Shown: positions 14,260 to 39,551 of the stretch, one piece after another
Position numbering within the stretch: position 1 is the stretch's first letter
How the letters are laid out: the number at the start of each line of letters is the position of its first letter
From: a virus
Reading direction: 5' to 3' (one strand)
Length of the DNA stretch: 39,551 nt
IMG/VR virus record: IMGVR_UViG_3300040816_000283
Location: 1-39,551 of that record
The notes under the pieces: generated by a model
Seen by the model: only the letters and a program-made list of their open reading frames with translations
What the model was told of the DNA's origin: nothing
Databases searched by the model: none
Position numbers and translations under genes: made by a program

Positions 14260-14335
14260 TGGTGCCGGCACCATGAATCGAACACGGGACCTGAGGTTTA
14301 CAAAACCCCTGCTCTACCTGCTGAGCTATACCGGC
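14260..14335 (-). tRNA. tRNA-Thr (anticodon TGT), CCA encoded
   Basis: The minus strand folds as a complete cloverleaf. The acceptor stem is GCCGGTA / TGCCGGC with one G-T pair. The D arm is GCTC-AGCAGGTA-GAGC. The anticodon stem is GGGGT / ACCTC around the loop TTTGTAA, giving anticodon TGT. The variable loop has five bases, and the T arm is CCGTG-TTCGATT-CATGG. Discriminator A (14263) is followed by an encoded CCA (14260-14262). It reads ACA codons. It is the only tRNA I find in the window. Confidence 0.95.
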
Positions 14336-33443: not shown

Positions 33444-33957
33444 CTTTTAACCTCAAATAAGTCATTAATATGTATTGGTCCTCGTCCGCGGGGGCAATAC
33501 TGTATTCATAAAGCCAAGCGTAAGGGAATACCGTTAGATACCCCTGTACCTGCTGTGTCTCTATTCCTGCGTGTTCAAATTTTATGTTACCACCTGAGAC
33601 AGTGTTTAGATGATACATCATTGCTAAGCGTCTCTTAGGGGTTCCATAATTATCAAAGAATACTTTAGCACCCTCTCCCTTTGGTATTTTAGTTACCACC
33701 ACGTGCTCAATCTCAGAACTTCTAAGCCTAAGAGAATTGACTACATACTGTGGTACTAGTGCCGAATAGGACCCAACAGAGGAGAGTATAGGGGCGCTAA
33801 GATTTGTCCTAAATTTACTATCCACATCTGAGAACAATAAGCACCCATTATGTGAATGATGATTTTGTGGATTCTCTTCCATTAACTTAATGGTCTCCCG
33901 GCACAAATCGTCCGGGAGACCTTCGTCAAAGTATTTGATGTAATTAGAAAGTAACAT
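33424..33957 (-). CDS. 2OG-oxygenase-like protein lacking the iron ligands
   Basis: A 177-residue protein; the ATG at 33955-33957 has AGGTGAAG directly before it. Segment order resembles a prolyl-hydroxylase fold. FDEGLPDDLCRETIKLMEEN is the opening helix, and VVVTKIPKGEGAKVFFDNYG stands where the HxD motif would be. LAMMYHLNTVSGGNIKFEHA is the central strand with the GG turn, and GYLTVFPYAWLYEYSIAPAD the second ligand region. The first ligand His appears to be Phe (F-F-D) and the second a Tyr, so the iron site is not conserved and catalysis is doubtful. It may be a degenerate relative with a structural or binding role. It overlaps the CobS-like gene end by 14 bases. Confidence 0.5.
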   Translation of the reverse strand: MLLSNYIKYFDEGLPDDLCRETIKLMEENPQNHHSHNGCLLFSDVDSKFRTNLSAPILSSVGSYSALVPQYVVNSLRLRSSEIEHVVVTKIPKGEGAKVFFDNYGTPKRRLAMMYHLNTVSGGNIKFEHAGIETQQVQGYLTVFPYAWLYEYSIAPADEDQYILMTYLRLKDEAAAV

Positions 33958-35140
33958 CTTCACCTGCATCAACTACTTCTTCCGTCGCTACTTCTTCAGT
34001 AACTTCGGGCTGTGCCGCAGGGTCGACCTTTGAGTACAAGTCAACAAACGCTGCCTTTGTATCTTCATCGAACCTGTTGACACATAATTGTACAGCCTTG
34101 AGCTTATCACCGAACATCGCGAATGCGTTAACAATGTGTTCAAGCCTACGCGTGCTAACCAACTCGTCAATGGCGCCTTCGAAGTAAGTCTTACGAATGA
34201 CCTCGGACCATGTTACTAGGTGAGTAGCAAACTCTTCGTCTGTACAATTTGCTTTAGCCATTTTATTGAGAACAATCTTTTTCTCAGTGGCTGCTGTAGG
34301 GTATTCCTGCTCTACGGTGATTGCGAATCTCTCCAGGAACGCCTCGTCCAAAAGTTGGGCGCTGATGAACTTTCCGTCATCTGAGCCTTTGCCTTTTGTA
34401 TTAGCCGTTGCCACAACCGTGAACCCGGGAGCAGGAATAACAGTCTCGCCGTTCTTCTTGTTAAAGTAAGATTTGCCTTCAAGTATGGCCTGGAGGCACA
34501 TGAGCTTGTTGGATCCTCTGTCTACTTCATCAAGGATAAGTACCGCGCCACGTTTCATGGCGGTGAGGACCGGTCCTTCTCTATAAACGACGTTACCGTC
34601 AACTAGTGTATTTCCACCGATCAAATCGTCTTCGTCGGTTTCAATACTAATATTTACACGAATCGCCTCACGTTTTAGATTCGCACATACTTGTTCAACC
34701 ATCGTAGTCTTACCATTACCTGATAATCCTGAGATGAATATTGGATAGAACATTGGAGACTGAAGAACTTTCTTCAAATCTCGATAGAAGCCAAAGGGCA
34801 CAAACGTGCTGTCTTTGACTGGGATTAAATTTTCTATATCCACGTTTAACTTTGCCTGTGTTAGGACCTTGGCTTCAGGAGTCTCGACTACCATCACTGG
34901 AGTCTTTGGAACTACCTGCATCTGAGTCTTTTGGATTGGCGCCATGTTTCCTTGAAACATACTTGCCAAATTGTAAAGTCCTCGAGACACTTTCCAATCG
35001 TCTTTGTTAACAATCCAGGACGGAAAGGGTTGTCCTAGTTCTTCGGCAGTCTTTAGGATATCAATCCTTTTGAACTGTCCGTTTTGAGTATCCTTTTCTT
35101 TCAATGCCGATACCAACTGCTCTCGTTCTAATGTCATCAT
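33944..35140 (-). CDS. CobS / MoxR-like AAA+ ATPase
   Basis: A 398-residue AAA+ protein. GLSGNGKT at about 138-145 is Walker A. RGAVLILDEVDRGSNKLMCL near 197-216 carries Walker B (LDEVDR). FTVVATANTKGKG is sensor 1, and the LLDEAFLERF part has the arginine finger. The order fits the CobS / MoxR group, known in cobaltochelatase and in MoxR-VWA chaperone systems. CobS-like genes are widespread in marine T4-like phages. The true role is probably with the VWA protein encoded at 35948-38191 rather than in cobalt insertion. An N-terminal 100-residue domain (FKRIDILKTAEELGQPFPSW) and an acidic tail flank the core. The start has AGGACTATATT before ATG, and an early promoter lies 48 bases upstream. 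Confidence 0.88.
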   Translation of the reverse strand: MMTLEREQLVSALKEKDTQNGQFKRIDILKTAEELGQPFPSWIVNKDDWKVSRGLYNLASMFQGNMAPIQKTQMQVVPKTPVMVVETPEAKVLTQAKLNVDIENLIPVKDSTFVPFGFYRDLKKVLQSPMFYPIFISGLSGNGKTTMVEQVCANLKREAIRVNISIETDEDDLIGGNTLVDGNVVYREGPVLTAMKRGAVLILDEVDRGSNKLMCLQAILEGKSYFNKKNGETVIPAPGFTVVATANTKGKGSDDGKFISAQLLDEAFLERFAITVEQEYPTAATEKKIVLNKMAKANCTDEEFATHLVTWSEVIRKTYFEGAIDELVSTRRLEHIVNAFAMFGDKLKAVQLCVNRFDEDTKAAFVDLYSKVDPAAQPEVTEEVATEEVVDAGEDVTF

Positions 35141-35187
35141 AATATAGTCCTCACTATTTTTAAGTTGTTTTTTCATTTTATACAAGT

Positions 35188-35267: not shown

Positions 35268-35951
35268 TCAATAACTTAGGCCCTTACCTAACATTCCACC
35301 CGTTTTATCTTCCGGATATTCCGTCGCAAACTCTAATTGCTCTACCAAACGTTCGTATACCTTAATCTCAGGACGCAAGTAACGGAACAAATCCATTCTA
35401 TAATTAGGGTATTCTAGAGCCTCTTCAACTGCTGCTAGAACTTTAGGATCACTTTCGTTTCTTGTTTCAACTTGTGAATAACCCAGCTGGGTTAATAGTG
35501 TGTTCATTTGTTTTAAGTGAACTATCTTACAATTCTCAGGAACTACAAACCTATCTAGCCAGTTTGAGGTATGTACATCTCGCAATCCCCAATTATTAGA
35601 ATTATTATGATTGACCTGGAACTTAATGTAATGATCCCAAAAGGAAGGGTCTCTTAAGATCGGCATTGAGACGAGATGGTTATGCAACTCTAGGTTACTG
35701 AACTTCTCTTTTTCCTGTGGGCCCAACATTAACCTCGAGACAGAGTATGTCCTATTTGATATCAAGCCACTGACATACCTTTCATAAGGGTGTCGGATAA
35801 GCATCCACTTCTGTTTCTTACCAGGCTCTAAATCTAAGTAAGAACCAGAGTTTATACCCTTGATATATCTTAAGGTTGATGTCCCTACTTTTGGAGCAGA
35901 GATTATGACATTATTTTTATCGTTAAAAATATCCAACGGTTTTGGAATCAT
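35268..35951 (-). CDS. Sulfotransferase-like protein
   Basis: A 227-residue protein with the two PAPS-binding signatures of cytosolic or Golgi-type sulfotransferases. SAPKVGTSTLRYI at 18-30 is the 5'-phosphosulfate loop. WMLIRHPYERYVSGL at 49-63 is the 3'-phosphate motif RxPxxRxxSG (R53, R58, S61). KIVHLKQMNTLLTQLG fits the later conserved part. It would transfer sulfate from PAPS to a hydroxyl or amine on a sugar, protein or small molecule. The substrate is unknown. It overlaps the CobT-like stop as ATGA and lies between the CobT-like and CobS-like genes. A gap of 127 bases holding the CobS promoter follows it. Confidence 0.8.
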   Translation of the reverse strand: MIPKPLDIFNDKNNVIISAPKVGTSTLRYIKGINSGSYLDLEPGKKQKWMLIRHPYERYVSGLISNRTYSVSRLMLGPQEKEKFSNLELHNHLVSMPILRDPSFWDHYIKFQVNHNNSNNWGLRDVHTSNWLDRFVVPENCKIVHLKQMNTLLTQLGYSQVETRNESDPKVLAAVEEALEYPNYRMDLFRYLRPEIKVYERLVEQLEFATEYPEDKTGGMLGKGLSY

Positions 35952-38191
35952 GCTACCATATCCATAAACTTGCTTAGGAACACTCGCTTCTGAACCTTAC
36001 CTGAGTTGAACTTCTTAAAGCCTCGGAGTAGGTCGCCCTTCTTGTTAGAGTTAACTTCTAGGACATCTTCATCAATACCTAACTTCTTACCGTTAACTAG
36101 GAAACGAGCATCGTAGCCTACCTGATCTTGAATCATCAAGACACCATCTCGTCTAAAGGTTTTCATGTATTGTCCATCTTCAAAGGAGCACCAGCTAAAA
36201 CCGCTATTGTATTGTTGGGTTGATTCAAACTCGTAGGTTACATTTCGAGTTGAGCCACCTTCCATTAAGTAGTAATTGATCGCTGAGGATCCTGTAGTCA
36301 ACTTGAACATTTCAACTAGGAGAAGAGTGTTATAATTTCTATCTCTGCCTCGAACGTTTTTGCCGCCACCAACAATCAATTGCTTGTGTCTGAATACGGT
36401 TTTCTCATCGTGTCGTAAACCTTTACTCCAAATACGCTCATCTTCAAACGTTGATTGCTCCCAATACTCCACGCTATCTGTGGCTCCACCATCAGTTAGG
36501 AACAGTGTATTCATTATCTCTACATTGTTAGCCTTGCGGAAGTCTTTCACAATCTGCATTGCCATTATCAAAGTATGGTTGAGATTAGTTCCACCTAGTT
36601 GATAGTTTCTGTTCTCAACCTGCCACCATTCGTTTTCATAACGGTTGTATGATGAACGTTGGTTAAAGTATTCTGCATAACATAACAAGTGCTTCATCGC
36701 AGATTCAGTCTGAGTCTTATTCCATGAACCTGAGAACAAATGACGGAGCATCATGTCTTCTTTTTGTAGGGCAAATTGTCCTGGAATCCTTTGAGTTTCT
36801 ACGGCGCCATATTCGCTGCTAGTCGTAAACCCATAAACCTCAAACGGAATATTGACTTTCTTACAAAACAACACCTGAGTCAACAGCTGTTCAATTGTGC
36901 CTGCCATGTTACCAGACATACTGCCTGACATATCAATAAACATACACATACCGTGGTTTTTACCGTTGGGCACAACCGTTGTCTGTTTGAAGAGATCTTC
37001 TGTTATCTTGTAAGCCCAAAGCTTGTCCTCGTTCAACTTACCTGTTTTAGAAATCTTTGCCTTAGACATCTGTGTTGCTTTACGCTTCATCTCGAATTGC
37101 TGAACCATATGATTAACAACCGAGTTATTTTTTGCCTTGAATGTTGAGAGTAGTTCAGTTGCTACCAGCTCTGTATCTTTAGCAGCGTCTGCATAATAGT
37201 CTGGCATAATCTTGAAACTCTTGTTCAAGCCTGTGTACATCTCGCGCGCTGGGACTACATACTTTTTCCAGTCCTTAACCTCAGGGATGTCTATGTAAAC
37301 CGGTGCCAAGCTATCTAAAGCTACCAACTTCTTTTCGTTTTTTCGGAAAGCTTGATCTGTGATTGACATCTCGCCGTCGCTTTCCATAAACTCGTCTAAC
37401 AAGTCCTGGGCAGTTGACTCGCCTTCTTCGGATTCTTCGGATTCTTCTTCATCATCTGAGTCTGAAGAGCTGTTGCCTGATTGATTTGTTTCTTCGGATT
37501 CTTCTTCGTCATCCTCCTGTTCATCATCTGAGCTAGGAGGAGGGGGAGGAGGAGTATCCATTTCATCGTCGTCTTCGAAGTCCTCGTCTGAGTCTTGAGG
37601 AACATACTGTTGCTGTTCCTTCATTTCTTCGGCTTCTTTTTGAGAGTTGCCATACAACTCTTGAGCTAACTGCTCAACGTCTGCCCATGTCTCAGTTTTT
37701 GCTACACGGTCTACGAATACTTGTTCTTCGTCTGTAAAATTAATGCCTAGGAGAGAACCTACTTTAAAGTGAAGATTGATTCTGTCAATTAGTGGAAGTT
37801 CGTTAACGTCTAAATCCTTAACACCAAAAAAGTCTCGGGCAAAAAGTTCTCGGTAACCACCGTAGAAACTTTTAACTAGTCCAGGATAACGTTCTTTTAC
37901 TTTACGCTCGATACGAGCATCTTCTACAATGTTGAGGAAGCCTTTGAGCTTGGGGTCTTTAGAAACTGAATCGTGCCAGCCTTCCTCAGGAGTCTCTAAA
38001 CCGTGTCCGACTTCGTGTCCTACTAAGAGGTCATAAAGATCAGGGGAGATGTCTTTCCATTGGGGGAGGAGGATCTTTCGATTCTTAAGGTCAAATGCTG
38101 CTGTTGGAATGTTGGCGTGTTCTACCTGAACATTCTCCGTCGCTAGCAGTTTTGCTAGTATCGACTTTTGGTTGTTTATTTGTATCGTCAT
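35948..38191 (-). CDS. CobT-like protein: HExxH domain, acidic linker, VWA domain
   Basis: A 747-residue protein in three parts. Residues about 30-130 hold LLVGHEVGHGLETPEEGWHD, with H59-E60-V-G-H63 as a zincin-type HExxH motif. Residues about 207-265 are an acidic, Ser/Pro-rich linker with a PPPPPP run. Residues about 415-620 form a von Willebrand factor A domain. It has FIDMSGSMSG (MIDAS DxSxS), a later conserved Thr (LGGTNLNH), and TLFLTDGGAT. CobT and other VWA partners of MoxR/CobS ATPases have this organisation. The pair may act as a chaperone or disassembly machine on virion or host complexes. GAGGAC lies before the ATG, with an early promoter at 38225-38253. Confidence 0.85.
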   Translation of the reverse strand: MTIQINNQKSILAKLLATENVQVEHANIPTAAFDLKNRKILLPQWKDISPDLYDLLVGHEVGHGLETPEEGWHDSVSKDPKLKGFLNIVEDARIERKVKERYPGLVKSFYGGYRELFARDFFGVKDLDVNELPLIDRINLHFKVGSLLGINFTDEEQVFVDRVAKTETWADVEQLAQELYGNSQKEAEEMKEQQQYVPQDSDEDFEDDDEMDTPPPPPPSSDDEQEDDEEESEETNQSGNSSSDSDDEEESEESEEGESTAQDLLDEFMESDGEMSITDQAFRKNEKKLVALDSLAPVYIDIPEVKDWKKYVVPAREMYTGLNKSFKIMPDYYADAAKDTELVATELLSTFKAKNNSVVNHMVQQFEMKRKATQMSKAKISKTGKLNEDKLWAYKITEDLFKQTTVVPNGKNHGMCMFIDMSGSMSGNMAGTIEQLLTQVLFCKKVNIPFEVYGFTTSSEYGAVETQRIPGQFALQKEDMMLRHLFSGSWNKTQTESAMKHLLCYAEYFNQRSSYNRYENEWWQVENRNYQLGGTNLNHTLIMAMQIVKDFRKANNVEIMNTLFLTDGGATDSVEYWEQSTFEDERIWSKGLRHDEKTVFRHKQLIVGGGKNVRGRDRNYNTLLLVEMFKLTTGSSAINYYLMEGGSTRNVTYEFESTQQYNSGFSWCSFEDGQYMKTFRRDGVLMIQDQVGYDARFLVNGKKLGIDEDVLEVNSNKKGDLLRGFKKFNSGKVQKRVFLSKFMDMVA

Positions 38192-38294: not shown

Positions 38295-39551
38295 TCAGTA
38301 GTTTAGGGCTAAAGTCAACAAATATTCACGTCCGCCGGCAGTATATTGGGGTAAAATCTCGAATTCTCTATCAAAAACGTCCCTAATTTGGAACATTACA
38401 TTGTAGATTCCAAAGTCTTTTCCTATATGTAACTGTGCTGATTTTACATCCTCGAGCGGTGTTTTGTCAACGTCTCGTCGTCCGTTTTGGTATGCTAGTT
38501 TGAACCCGTAGGTATAACCCTTGTAGTCGTCCTCAAACATGATTGCTGTACGAAGTTTAGGGATCCTTGGAAGATCTGAATGTGTGACTGCTATAACTGT
38601 CTTGAATTGTTTGTAGTAGGCTAGTACCTTAATACCCTTGGTACTGTAGGAGCCTGTGTTCACATACTGGTTATTGACATAGTCGTAATCTATACCCTCG
38701 TCAAATTCGTAGGCGAAAGCTGAAAAAATTTTATATCGTACGTCGACACCTTGCCCCTCCTCTGCGTTGAGAAACCGATTTGGTGATACCCAACCGTCGC
38801 CGTTCGTTTCATATAGAGTCGGTCGCCTATAACTATTCCCTACACTAATTGAAAAGTCTGGGGTTCTGACACCTACTTTATATACGAATACATCATCGTT
38901 CTCATATCTTAGTCCTGCATTAAACAAATCATAGGTAAGAAAAGAGTAGACTGATCCAACTGTTAACTTTTCGGCACCATTATCCTCTCTTTCTACGTTT
39001 GATCCAAGTAGTACATAATCGTTGACATACTTACGAGCATCTAAATAGTATCTTTGATTTTTAGAAGAGTAGCTCTCTTCACCGTTTCTCAAAAATGTTT
39101 GTTCGTTTTCTACGAACCCAAGTGTTGCATTTTCGCCTTGTATTGATAACTCGTGCTTCCTACCCTTTTGTTCACAATCGTCAGACTCCCAGCATGAATC
39201 ATAATCGTATTGGTAATCTGTTAAAGCATAATTTAATACACCCGTTTGAAGTCTTAAAACATTGTTATGGTAGTCGTCTTCTTCCTCATTGGTGTTCATT
39301 ACGCTACCATTCGATGCTTGCTTAGATGCTATAGAAAAGTATTTGTCGCCAACTGAAAAATATTTTGAATCACTGCCTGCTTGAGCTATGAAGTGTTTTC
39401 TAAGTTTGTCTGTTATAAAAACAGTGCCTGCTAAACTACCCGAGCCTGTGAGTACACTATTGGGCCCATGAGCAATCATGATCTCTTGGTATTGTTGAGG
39501 TAGATCGTTTGCCCAGTCATACCAACCAGTAGAAGGATCGTTAACGGGTAC
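38295..39551 (-). CDS. TonB-dependent-receptor-like outer-membrane protein, 3' part
   Basis: The open frame runs to the window edge, so the N-terminus (signal peptide, TonB box) is missing. The visible 418 residues begin in a plug domain: EIMIAHGPNSVLTGSGSLAG, then TVFITDK, matching the plug pattern V-x-x-G-P-x-S-x-L-x-G-S-G-x-x-G-G-x-x-x-I. The rest is a beta-barrel with alternating aromatic and polar residues. It includes SVGNSYRRPTLYETNGDGWV (receptor pattern FRxPTLxE) and the end NVMFQIRDVFDREFEILPQY, then AGGREYLLTLALNY, like the L-F-D-x-x-Y, G-R-x-x-x-x-x-L-x-Y close of these receptors with a final aromatic. The barrel is compact, about 370 residues. Receptors of this type take up vitamin B12, siderophores or glycans. 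The ligand is not readable, and a BtuB-like size is only suggestive. It lies upstream of the CobT promoter. Confidence 0.8.
   Translation of the reverse strand, partial: VPVNDPSTGWYDWANDLPQQYQEIMIAHGPNSVLTGSGSLAGTVFITDKLRKHFIAQAGSDSKYFSVGDKYFSIASKQASNGSVMNTNEEEDDYHNNVLRLQTGVLNYALTDYQYDYDSCWESDDCEQKGRKHELSIQGENATLGFVENEQTFLRNGEESYSSKNQRYYLDARKYVNDYVLLGSNVEREDNGAEKLTVGSVYSFLTYDLFNAGLRYENDDVFVYKVGVRTPDFSISVGNSYRRPTLYETNGDGWVSPNRFLNAEEGQGVDVRYKIFSAFAYEFDEGIDYDYVNNQYVNTGSYSTKGIKVLAYYKQFKTVIAVTHSDLPRIPKLRTAIMFEDDYKGYTYGFKLAYQNGRRDVDKTPLEDVKSAQLHIGKDFGIYNVMFQIRDVFDREFEILPQYTAGGREYLLTLALNY

Follow-up and report, generated by a model that had tools for sequence, protein, structure and literature searches.

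The virus contig IMGVR_UViG_3300040816_000283 (39,551 nt, analysed as a whole and hereafter called the window) ends within the gene of a TonB-dependent receptor-type protein that is phage-borne. In our preferred interpretation, which we hold with moderate confidence, this gene encodes a TonB-coupled outer-membrane importer that is made during infection. The gene, its location in phage DNA, its family, its predicted fold, its conserved TonB box and the purifying selection on it could be documented, whereas expression, membrane insertion, use of TonB, transport and the ligand are inferred, and no experiment and no expression data stand behind the importer reading.

Gene and domain organisation of the receptor

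The ORF at 38295–39551 on the minus strand comprises 418 codons plus stop, is open at the window edge and coincides exactly with the long frame that a sequence-only reading of the window had taken for a TonB-dependent receptor gene. The complete gene has 498 codons, of which the window contains the last 418, i.e. residues 81–498 plus stop; the first 80 codons, for the putative signal peptide, the TonB box and the beginning of the plug, lie outside the window. The complete gene, with phage genes on both sides, is present in two further IMG/VR contigs, 3300040808_000595 (L001; 100% identity across the 418 residues) and 3300020053_000679 (L002; 97% identity to the window ORF). The full-length ORF begins MKHLILCFALMSTIAHGQTIEEVIVVGQ, which by eye reads as a signal peptide followed by the TonB-box-like EEVIVVG, the two elements that had been anticipated past position 39551. 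Most family members have an N-terminus of the basic-hydrophobic-small type, a reading made by eye only.

Within the window, the second part of the plug domain is encoded at 39408–39551 (minus strand; residues 81–128, the Pfam Plug match extending over residues 39–123 of the full protein) and includes the plug apex NDPSTGWYDWANDL, which is conserved in the alignment. The 22-strand beta-barrel, assigned by DSSP in the AlphaFold model m320fa91001d4, is encoded at 38304–39395 (minus strand; residues 133–496). Extracellular loop L3 and its edge, with D198, C200 and C206, correspond to 39174–39200 (minus strand; residues 198–206) and the start of loop L7 to 38808–38834 (minus strand; residues 320–328). 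The plug motif (NGVPVNDP...GPNSVLTGSGSLAG), the FRxPTLxE-like element (SYRRPTLYE, at the start of L7) and the final aromatic residue (ALNY), on which the sequence-only reading had relied, are all present in the protein. The GC content of the gene (0.40) is like that of the remainder of the window.

Since the window ORF begins at residue 81, without the beginning of the plug, it had no Pfam match on its own; against NCBIfam BtuB it gave a weak match (E 0.0023). The full-length protein matched the Plug profile PF07715 with E-values of 6.7e-10 (L001) and 2e-9 (L002) and with 39.9 bits against a curated cut-off of 23.9 bits, and this profile also matched all 51 aligned family members at E 0.001 or better. 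The plug profile search proposed with the earlier claim was thereby passed. The corresponding search with the barrel profile PF00593 succeeded for 3 of the 51 members (E 0.001; best 6.6e-17) but not for the window's own protein. The B12 receptor model TIGR01779 matched 42 of the 51 members (best E 2.4e-22); with the window's full protein it gave E 3.6e-9 and 35.7 bits, far below the equivalog cut-off of 599.7. Weak matches were obtained to a hemoglobin/transferrin receptor model (19/51 members) and to a heme receptor model (9/51). The carboxypeptidase-regulatory-like N-terminal domain, which we take to be a criterion for SusC-type receptors, was not found, as the 51 members matched only Plug and PF00593 at E 0.001.

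When the family profile was compared with solved structures, BtuB ranked highest (E 5e-26), the next TonB receptor being a Bacteroides B12 receptor (1.4e-4), and the heme receptor PhuR reached 8.7e-4; hhalign of the family against E. coli BtuB gave a probability of 99.2 and E 1.2e-19. With the window's protein as sole query, Bacteroides B12 receptors were matched at only 1.6e-4 and E. coli BtuB was not matched. The profile phrog_5687 (760 positions, unknown function) matched 35 of the 51 members (best 1.4e-11). Since its match in the window's protein covers residues 58–142 only, i.e. the plug region, phrog_5687 probably is, as judged from this alignment, a viral TonB-receptor family; the profile is longer than our protein and a relation past the plug is not shown.

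Predicted structure and comparison with BtuB

The AlphaFold prediction improved from a pLDDT of 68 with 19 sequences to a pLDDT of 87.2 and a pTM of 0.86 with 51 sequences, and the model comprises 22 barrel strands and a plug. The plugged 22-strand barrel on which the earlier claim depended could thus be counted in a predicted structure. The suggestion of a compact barrel was borne out for the extracellular loops, eleven in number and totalling only 88 residues (assigned by alternation from the plug), but not for the strand number, which is the normal 22. The best solved match of the model was E. coli BtuB, with Z 36.7 over 474 of the 498 residues at 2.3 Å. Structures of this protein occupied ranks 1–11 (Z 36.7 to 33.5), followed by Bacteroides B12 receptors at ranks 12–15 and then by ZnuD (31.4) and FhuA (30.9); a complex of FhuA with the superinfection exclusion lipoprotein Llp (8a60) was also among the matches. 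In viral predicted structures, the sole match with E < 0.001 was BFVD A0A8D9FQQ5 (6.1e-13).

E. coli BtuB (PDB 2gsk, 1nqh) is thus the nearest known protein by both fold and family profile, and it shares the plugged 22-strand barrel and the TonB box. Unlike BtuB with its 614 residues, the receptor has 498 residues and trimmed loops, carries an invariant cysteine (C200) at the position of BtuB Y232, remains far under the TIGR01779 equivalog cut-off and belongs to a family that is virus-only so far.

Phage location and neighbouring genes

In L002, the genes are arranged on one strand in the order gp47, gp46, glutaredoxin, peptide deformylase, ClpP-like protease, M15 endolysin, His-rich exported protein, receptor, a pair of CobT-like and CobS-like genes, gp45 and gp44; the names ClpP, M15, CobT-like, CobS-like, gp45 and gp47 have family-search support and the others were given by eye. 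Both L001 and L002 extend past the right edge of the window on the same strand, through the His-rich gene, M15 endolysin, ClpP-like protease, deformylase and glutaredoxin to gp46. The right edge is accordingly no chimeric join with host DNA; such a join would have refuted the earlier claim. The window itself encodes a T4-like DNA polymerase, UvsX and a helicase, and the best-ranked named phages for the polymerase were cyanophages (48% shared). A single tRNA-Thr gene with anticodon TGT was found at 14260–14335 on the minus strand.

Next to the receptor gene, the CobT-like protein is encoded at 35948–38191 (minus strand); it belongs to phrog_459 ('peptidase'; E 1.8e-184) and matches the CobT model TIGR01651 with only 9.5e-4, far below the cut-off. 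The CobS-like AAA ATPase (phrog_249) at 33944–35185 (minus strand) reaches E 1.7e-22 with TIGR01650, again below the cut-off. Between the two lies an ORF of 227 aa (35268–35951, minus strand), also seen in L001 and L002 and not listed at this place in the related record L009; it matched no family at a trustworthy E-value and looks sulfotransferase-like by eye only.

In the ORF list of L009, the His-rich gene is directly followed by cobT and the receptor is absent, and no receptor match was obtained in records L008, L009 and L011 or in the more distant L012. Since these receptor-less relatives carry a CobT-like protein of 49% identity and lack the receptor there, the receptor is an optional gene at the cobT locus. 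The His-rich exported protein (L001:3122–3484, L002:7401–7757, L009:6522–6881) combines a glycine-zipper-like stretch with an HGHGHGHYH run, shows 39% identity between receptor-bearing and receptor-less phages, matches no Pfam and no PHROG family and could bind metal.

A family found only in viruses so far

A degenerate pattern of the plug motif matched 80 stretches of viral DNA. In 23 of these, including the two contigs already known, the ORF with the motif resembled the protein of the window, with phmmer E-values of 3.5e-32 or better; the other motif-bearing ORFs, among those listed, did not look plug-like by eye. A profile scan then yielded 89 viral stretches with relatives out of 145 candidates, and 80 of these relatives form the basis of the locus counts. 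The 80 loci fall into 42 clusters at 85% identity, and the aligned members have 487–554 residues and about 35% identity to the window's protein.

No cellular relative was detected in either of two scans of one genome per species for 84,980 bacterial and archaeal species, the first of which yielded 69 candidate stretches and the second, with a C-terminal profile including E. coli BtuB, 552. As these scans depend on short exact motifs, a diverged cellular relative may have been missed. Three family queries (P0001 and members from L018 and L065; E 0.001) against 50,697 phage records retrieved either nothing or only two Salmonella records, which are bacterial and in which BtuB was matched. The window fragment gave a chance-level match (E 0.7) to the Lentisphaerae phage WC36-1. 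With E. coli BtuB as query, 50 phage records were matched, many of which look like bacterial DNA; judged by such matches, TonB receptors of other kinds are present in the deposited phage records. A plasmid search retrieved one Citrobacter btuB only.

Recognised phage neighbours were present at 79 of the 80 loci, and five neighbourhoods could be distinguished by asking which of 15 query proteins are encoded nearest to the receptor on the same strand, up to a distance of 2.5 kb. The receptor is located before a UvsW-type helicase at 30 loci (and at 2 more that are cut short), between cobT and either clpP or the His-rich gene at 23 loci (plus 2 cut), before a phrog_107 exonuclease at 10 loci (plus 1 cut), before gp47 at 4 loci and near gp32 at 7 loci (directly after it in 3 and a few genes before it in 4); one locus remained without assignment. 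PHROG tests of the neighbour labels gave matches for the helicase (phrog_16), the ssDNA-binding gp32 (phrog_224), the exonuclease, gp45 and gp47. In a maximum-likelihood tree built from 41 cluster members plus BtuB (the short L161 was left out here and in the late-promoter count below), the five neighbourhood groups change four times, the minimum possible, from which we infer that the receptor genes are old and have made few moves.

Of 17 large contigs, 9 contain gp23, and 7 of these 9 bear the receptor. The gene was not found in G009, G011, G017 and G020 of the helicase group, in G012 and G015 of the exonuclease group and in G010 and G013, all of them fragments. The helicase group is considered T4-like on the strength of other genes, among them one with a UvsX match of 5.7e-69 and class Ia NrdA/NrdB.

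Taken together, we propose, tentatively and with confidence just short of even, a virus-specific lineage of TonB-dependent transporters that would have resided in T4-like phages for a long time, with vertical inheritance and few moves between fixed sites in the clusters of replication genes. Such an active importer would be the virus's own rather than a host's and would serve a lytic phage to feed the cell it infects, a corrinoid being the most likely nutrient.

Conservation and selection

Conservation was measured as mean entropy over 51 members in the columns present in the window's protein. The second plug apex (0.65 bits) and the TonB box (0.76 bits) were the most constrained, followed by the extracellular loops (1.44), the strands (1.92) and the periplasmic turns (2.73). 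The conservation of the loops is carried by L2, L3, L7, L9, L10 and L11 (1.1–1.6 bits), whereas L1, L4, L5 and L8, of 2–4 residues each, are not conserved (2.3–2.6 bits). The TonB box, which aligns to D6–V10 of BtuB, follows the pattern [IV]E[ET]xxVxG in 50 of the 51 members and reads EEVIVVA in the remaining one. D198, C200 and C206 of L3 are invariant in alignment A4 (51/51 members), and the equivalents of C200 and C206 are separated by 4 to 15 residues, i.e. the length of L3 varies. Sixteen pairs were chosen for comparison, and in the 8 whose dS exceeded 0.2, dN/dS was 0.11–0.24, which shows that divergent receptor genes are under purifying selection; of the remaining pairs, four were identical and four had dS < 0.06. 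The pair of the window's own lineage (dN/dS 0.48 at dS 0.025) has diverged too little to tell.

Ligand

Because BtuB is so near, our best single guess for the ligand is vitamin B12 or a related corrinoid, and one ligand is probably common to the whole family; cobalamin is only weakly supported, and heme or a siderophore, i.e. a metal chelate, remains open as the main alternative. BtuB residues Y229–D230, R497 and Y579 align with the conserved Y197–D198, R409 and Y483 of the receptor. We take R497, D179 and N276 of BtuB to be B12 contacts; unlike R497, the latter two have no conserved counterpart, D179 aligning to an unconserved column and N276 to none. For Y229, D230 and Y579, contacts with B12 in simulations are described in the accessible part of PMC7360065. 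The correspondence between Y229–D230 and Y197–D198 is a matter of alignment and suggestive only.

Three candidate links to cobalamin gained no support. From the accessible part of PMC7360065, at least 31 contacts between BtuB and B12 in simulations were taken (the list is incomplete), 26 of which could be mapped; 7 of these 26 fall on columns of at least 85% conservation, compared to 17.7% of all columns (permutation p 0.16), and a conserved cobalamin site was thus not supported. A PF02867 reductase occurs in 12 of 25 contigs searched, 9 of the 12 being receptor-bearing, and all six reductases tested from these nine exceeded the cut-off of the class I model TIGR02506 (NrdE/NrdA) and stayed under that of the B12-dependent model TIGR02504. 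Three of the neighbours of the reductases were tested and match NrdB models, the other neighbours having been read by eye. Therefore, no B12-dependent reductase explains a need for the vitamin; other B12 enzymes were not sought. A link through the CobS/CobT-like neighbours was rejected since these remain below the cobaltochelatase cut-offs and the receptor is also found in four other neighbourhoods. In L181:1228–3213, the NrdA carries a C-terminal glutaredoxin domain (TIGR02181 5e-14, residues 578–643), and L180 shows the same by eye.

Sequences upstream of the receptor genes

The sequence NATAAATA, which we take to be the T4 late-promoter motif, was present within 120 bases upstream of none of 41 receptor genes. 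In the same interval, it was found for 6/13 cobT, 3/13 deformylase, 1/13 glutaredoxin and 1/1 endolysin genes and for no other labelled genes; two of the 41 receptor starts may be placed too far downstream. Since the motif is missing near the receptor genes, early or middle expression would fit, but it is not shown and read-through is possible. Over the loci of the 41 receptor genes (624,712 bases), NATAAATA occurs 145 times on the strand of the receptor and 38 times on the other, a bias that T4-type late promoters should show if the receptor's strand carries most genes.

A search of eight loci with Rfam yielded no known riboswitch upstream, the six matches all being tRNAs. In the helicase group, 15 of 19 cluster members have a hairpin about 70–130 bases ahead of the receptor gene (L112:9817–9879, L138:8376–8436, L152:4240–4300, L166:9810–9866 and 11 more). 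Its stem letters differ, its loop contains an invariant CUCCCACA, and it is mostly followed by a terminator-like hairpin (z-scores –0.4 to –4.0). It had no Rfam match in the eight loci searched and could be a leader controlling the receptor or the tail of the upstream gene.

Proposed function and alternative explanations

As an importer, the protein would be exported by Sec through its signal peptide and fold in the host outer membrane into a 22-strand barrel closed by the plug. Power would come from the host TonB-ExbB-ExbD, which would reach the conserved N-terminal TonB box; we attribute it to the host because neither TonB_C nor ExbB was matched in 17 large contigs, 15 with receptor, although these contigs are incomplete and the search did not include ExbD. 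Recognition of one small ligand, used family-wide, may rest with the plug apices and the short loops on the outside, and the advantage for the phage would be that a limiting cofactor keeps arriving once the expression of host genes has been shut off.

The explanation easiest to dismiss is a passive fragment of host DNA, arising from chimeric assembly or from the recent, non-functional capture of a host gene. It could be entertained as long as only the window was considered, which ends within the gene and whose truncated ORF has no Pfam match, and the two other contigs rule it out for the window. For the family, we regard it as extremely improbable given the phage neighbours at 79/80 loci, the failure of both seeded scans of the 84,980 species genomes to turn up a cellular relative, the dN/dS of 0.11–0.24 in eight divergent pairs, the GC content of 0.40 that matches the rest of the window, and gene sites that track the gene tree with the minimum of four changes.

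The sequence-only reading had left the choice between uptake and a change of the cell surface. TonB receptors are common phage receptors, and a phage might mimic or mask such a receptor of its host, blocking other phages or soaking up released virions. The FhuA-Llp complex among the structural matches, the variable length of L3 and the very short loops (eleven, with 88 residues altogether), which might keep the protein out of reach of phages and colicins, are all compatible with superinfection exclusion or a decoy of this kind. A decoy needs no TonB box, yet the box persists in 50/51 members, whose identity to the window's protein is about 35%; the pooled extracellular loops are more conserved than turns and strands, the opposite of an arms race, and short loops offer phages little to bind. 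Conservation of the TonB box and of the longer loops therefore favours active uptake, and we consider a decoy unlikely; the uptake half of the earlier alternative is retained, with the ligand unproven. A somewhat less remote, though still improbable, variant is the same machine with another ligand, namely iron (as heme or siderophore) or another metal chelate, e.g. for the metal-dependent class I ribonucleotide reductase. The class I assignment of 6/6 tested reductases in receptor-bearing contigs, with NrdB in the three neighbours tested, speaks for it, as do the weak matches to heme (9/51) and hemoglobin/transferrin (19/51) receptor models and structural Z-scores of ZnuD, FhuA and FecA only 5–7 under BtuB. 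BtuB is nevertheless nearer than any iron receptor, both by profile (5e-26 compared to 8.7e-4 for PhuR) and by fold.

If virus-only outer-membrane transporters are confirmed, lytic phages would control what an infected cell takes up from the water, whereas virus-carried metabolic genes usually act inside the cell, and phage infection would be tied to the supply of scarce cofactors such as vitamin B12 or iron. Under the importer reading, the virus would be providing a host that it is killing with the means to take up one particular nutrient. The family also offers a ready model of a minimal TonB-dependent transporter, given its small size (about 500 residues), its short loops and its 42 clusters at 85% identity.

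Parts of TonB systems in phages have been reported before. A TonB-dependent receptor named 'SusC' is described in the marine megaphage Mar_Mega_1 and in LR745206 (PMC9723777), likewise from uncultured marine phage. BFVD A0A8D9FQQ5, which is annotated SusC, differs from our receptor in its length (805 aa) and has 11% identity to it; whether it is identical with the Mar_Mega_1 protein was not established. Acinetobacter prophages carry TonB-dependent receptors as well, but are temperate (PMC6193963), and Lentisphaerae phages carry the energizer ExbB, which is part of TonB uptake but not a receptor (PMC11361711). Nothing on phage TonB receptors was found in the available portions of PMC8620254, PMC9004378 ('TonB' not in text) and PMC6370689 (reference list), and the phrase 'phage-encoded TonB' occurs in no paper of the searched literature. 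Among the matches listed, the receptor family is undescribed in the open-licence literature. TonB receptors of other phages have already been published; a virus-only BtuB-like family looks new.

Among streamlined marine bacteria, SAR86 is named as a user of TonB transporters in the part of PMC6931264 that was available. SAR86 is for this reason one possible type of host, the actual host being unknown. The source projects of L026, L096 and L150 may name a host; the identifiers of these three contigs are presumably IMG genome-type numbers rather than bulk-metagenome numbers.
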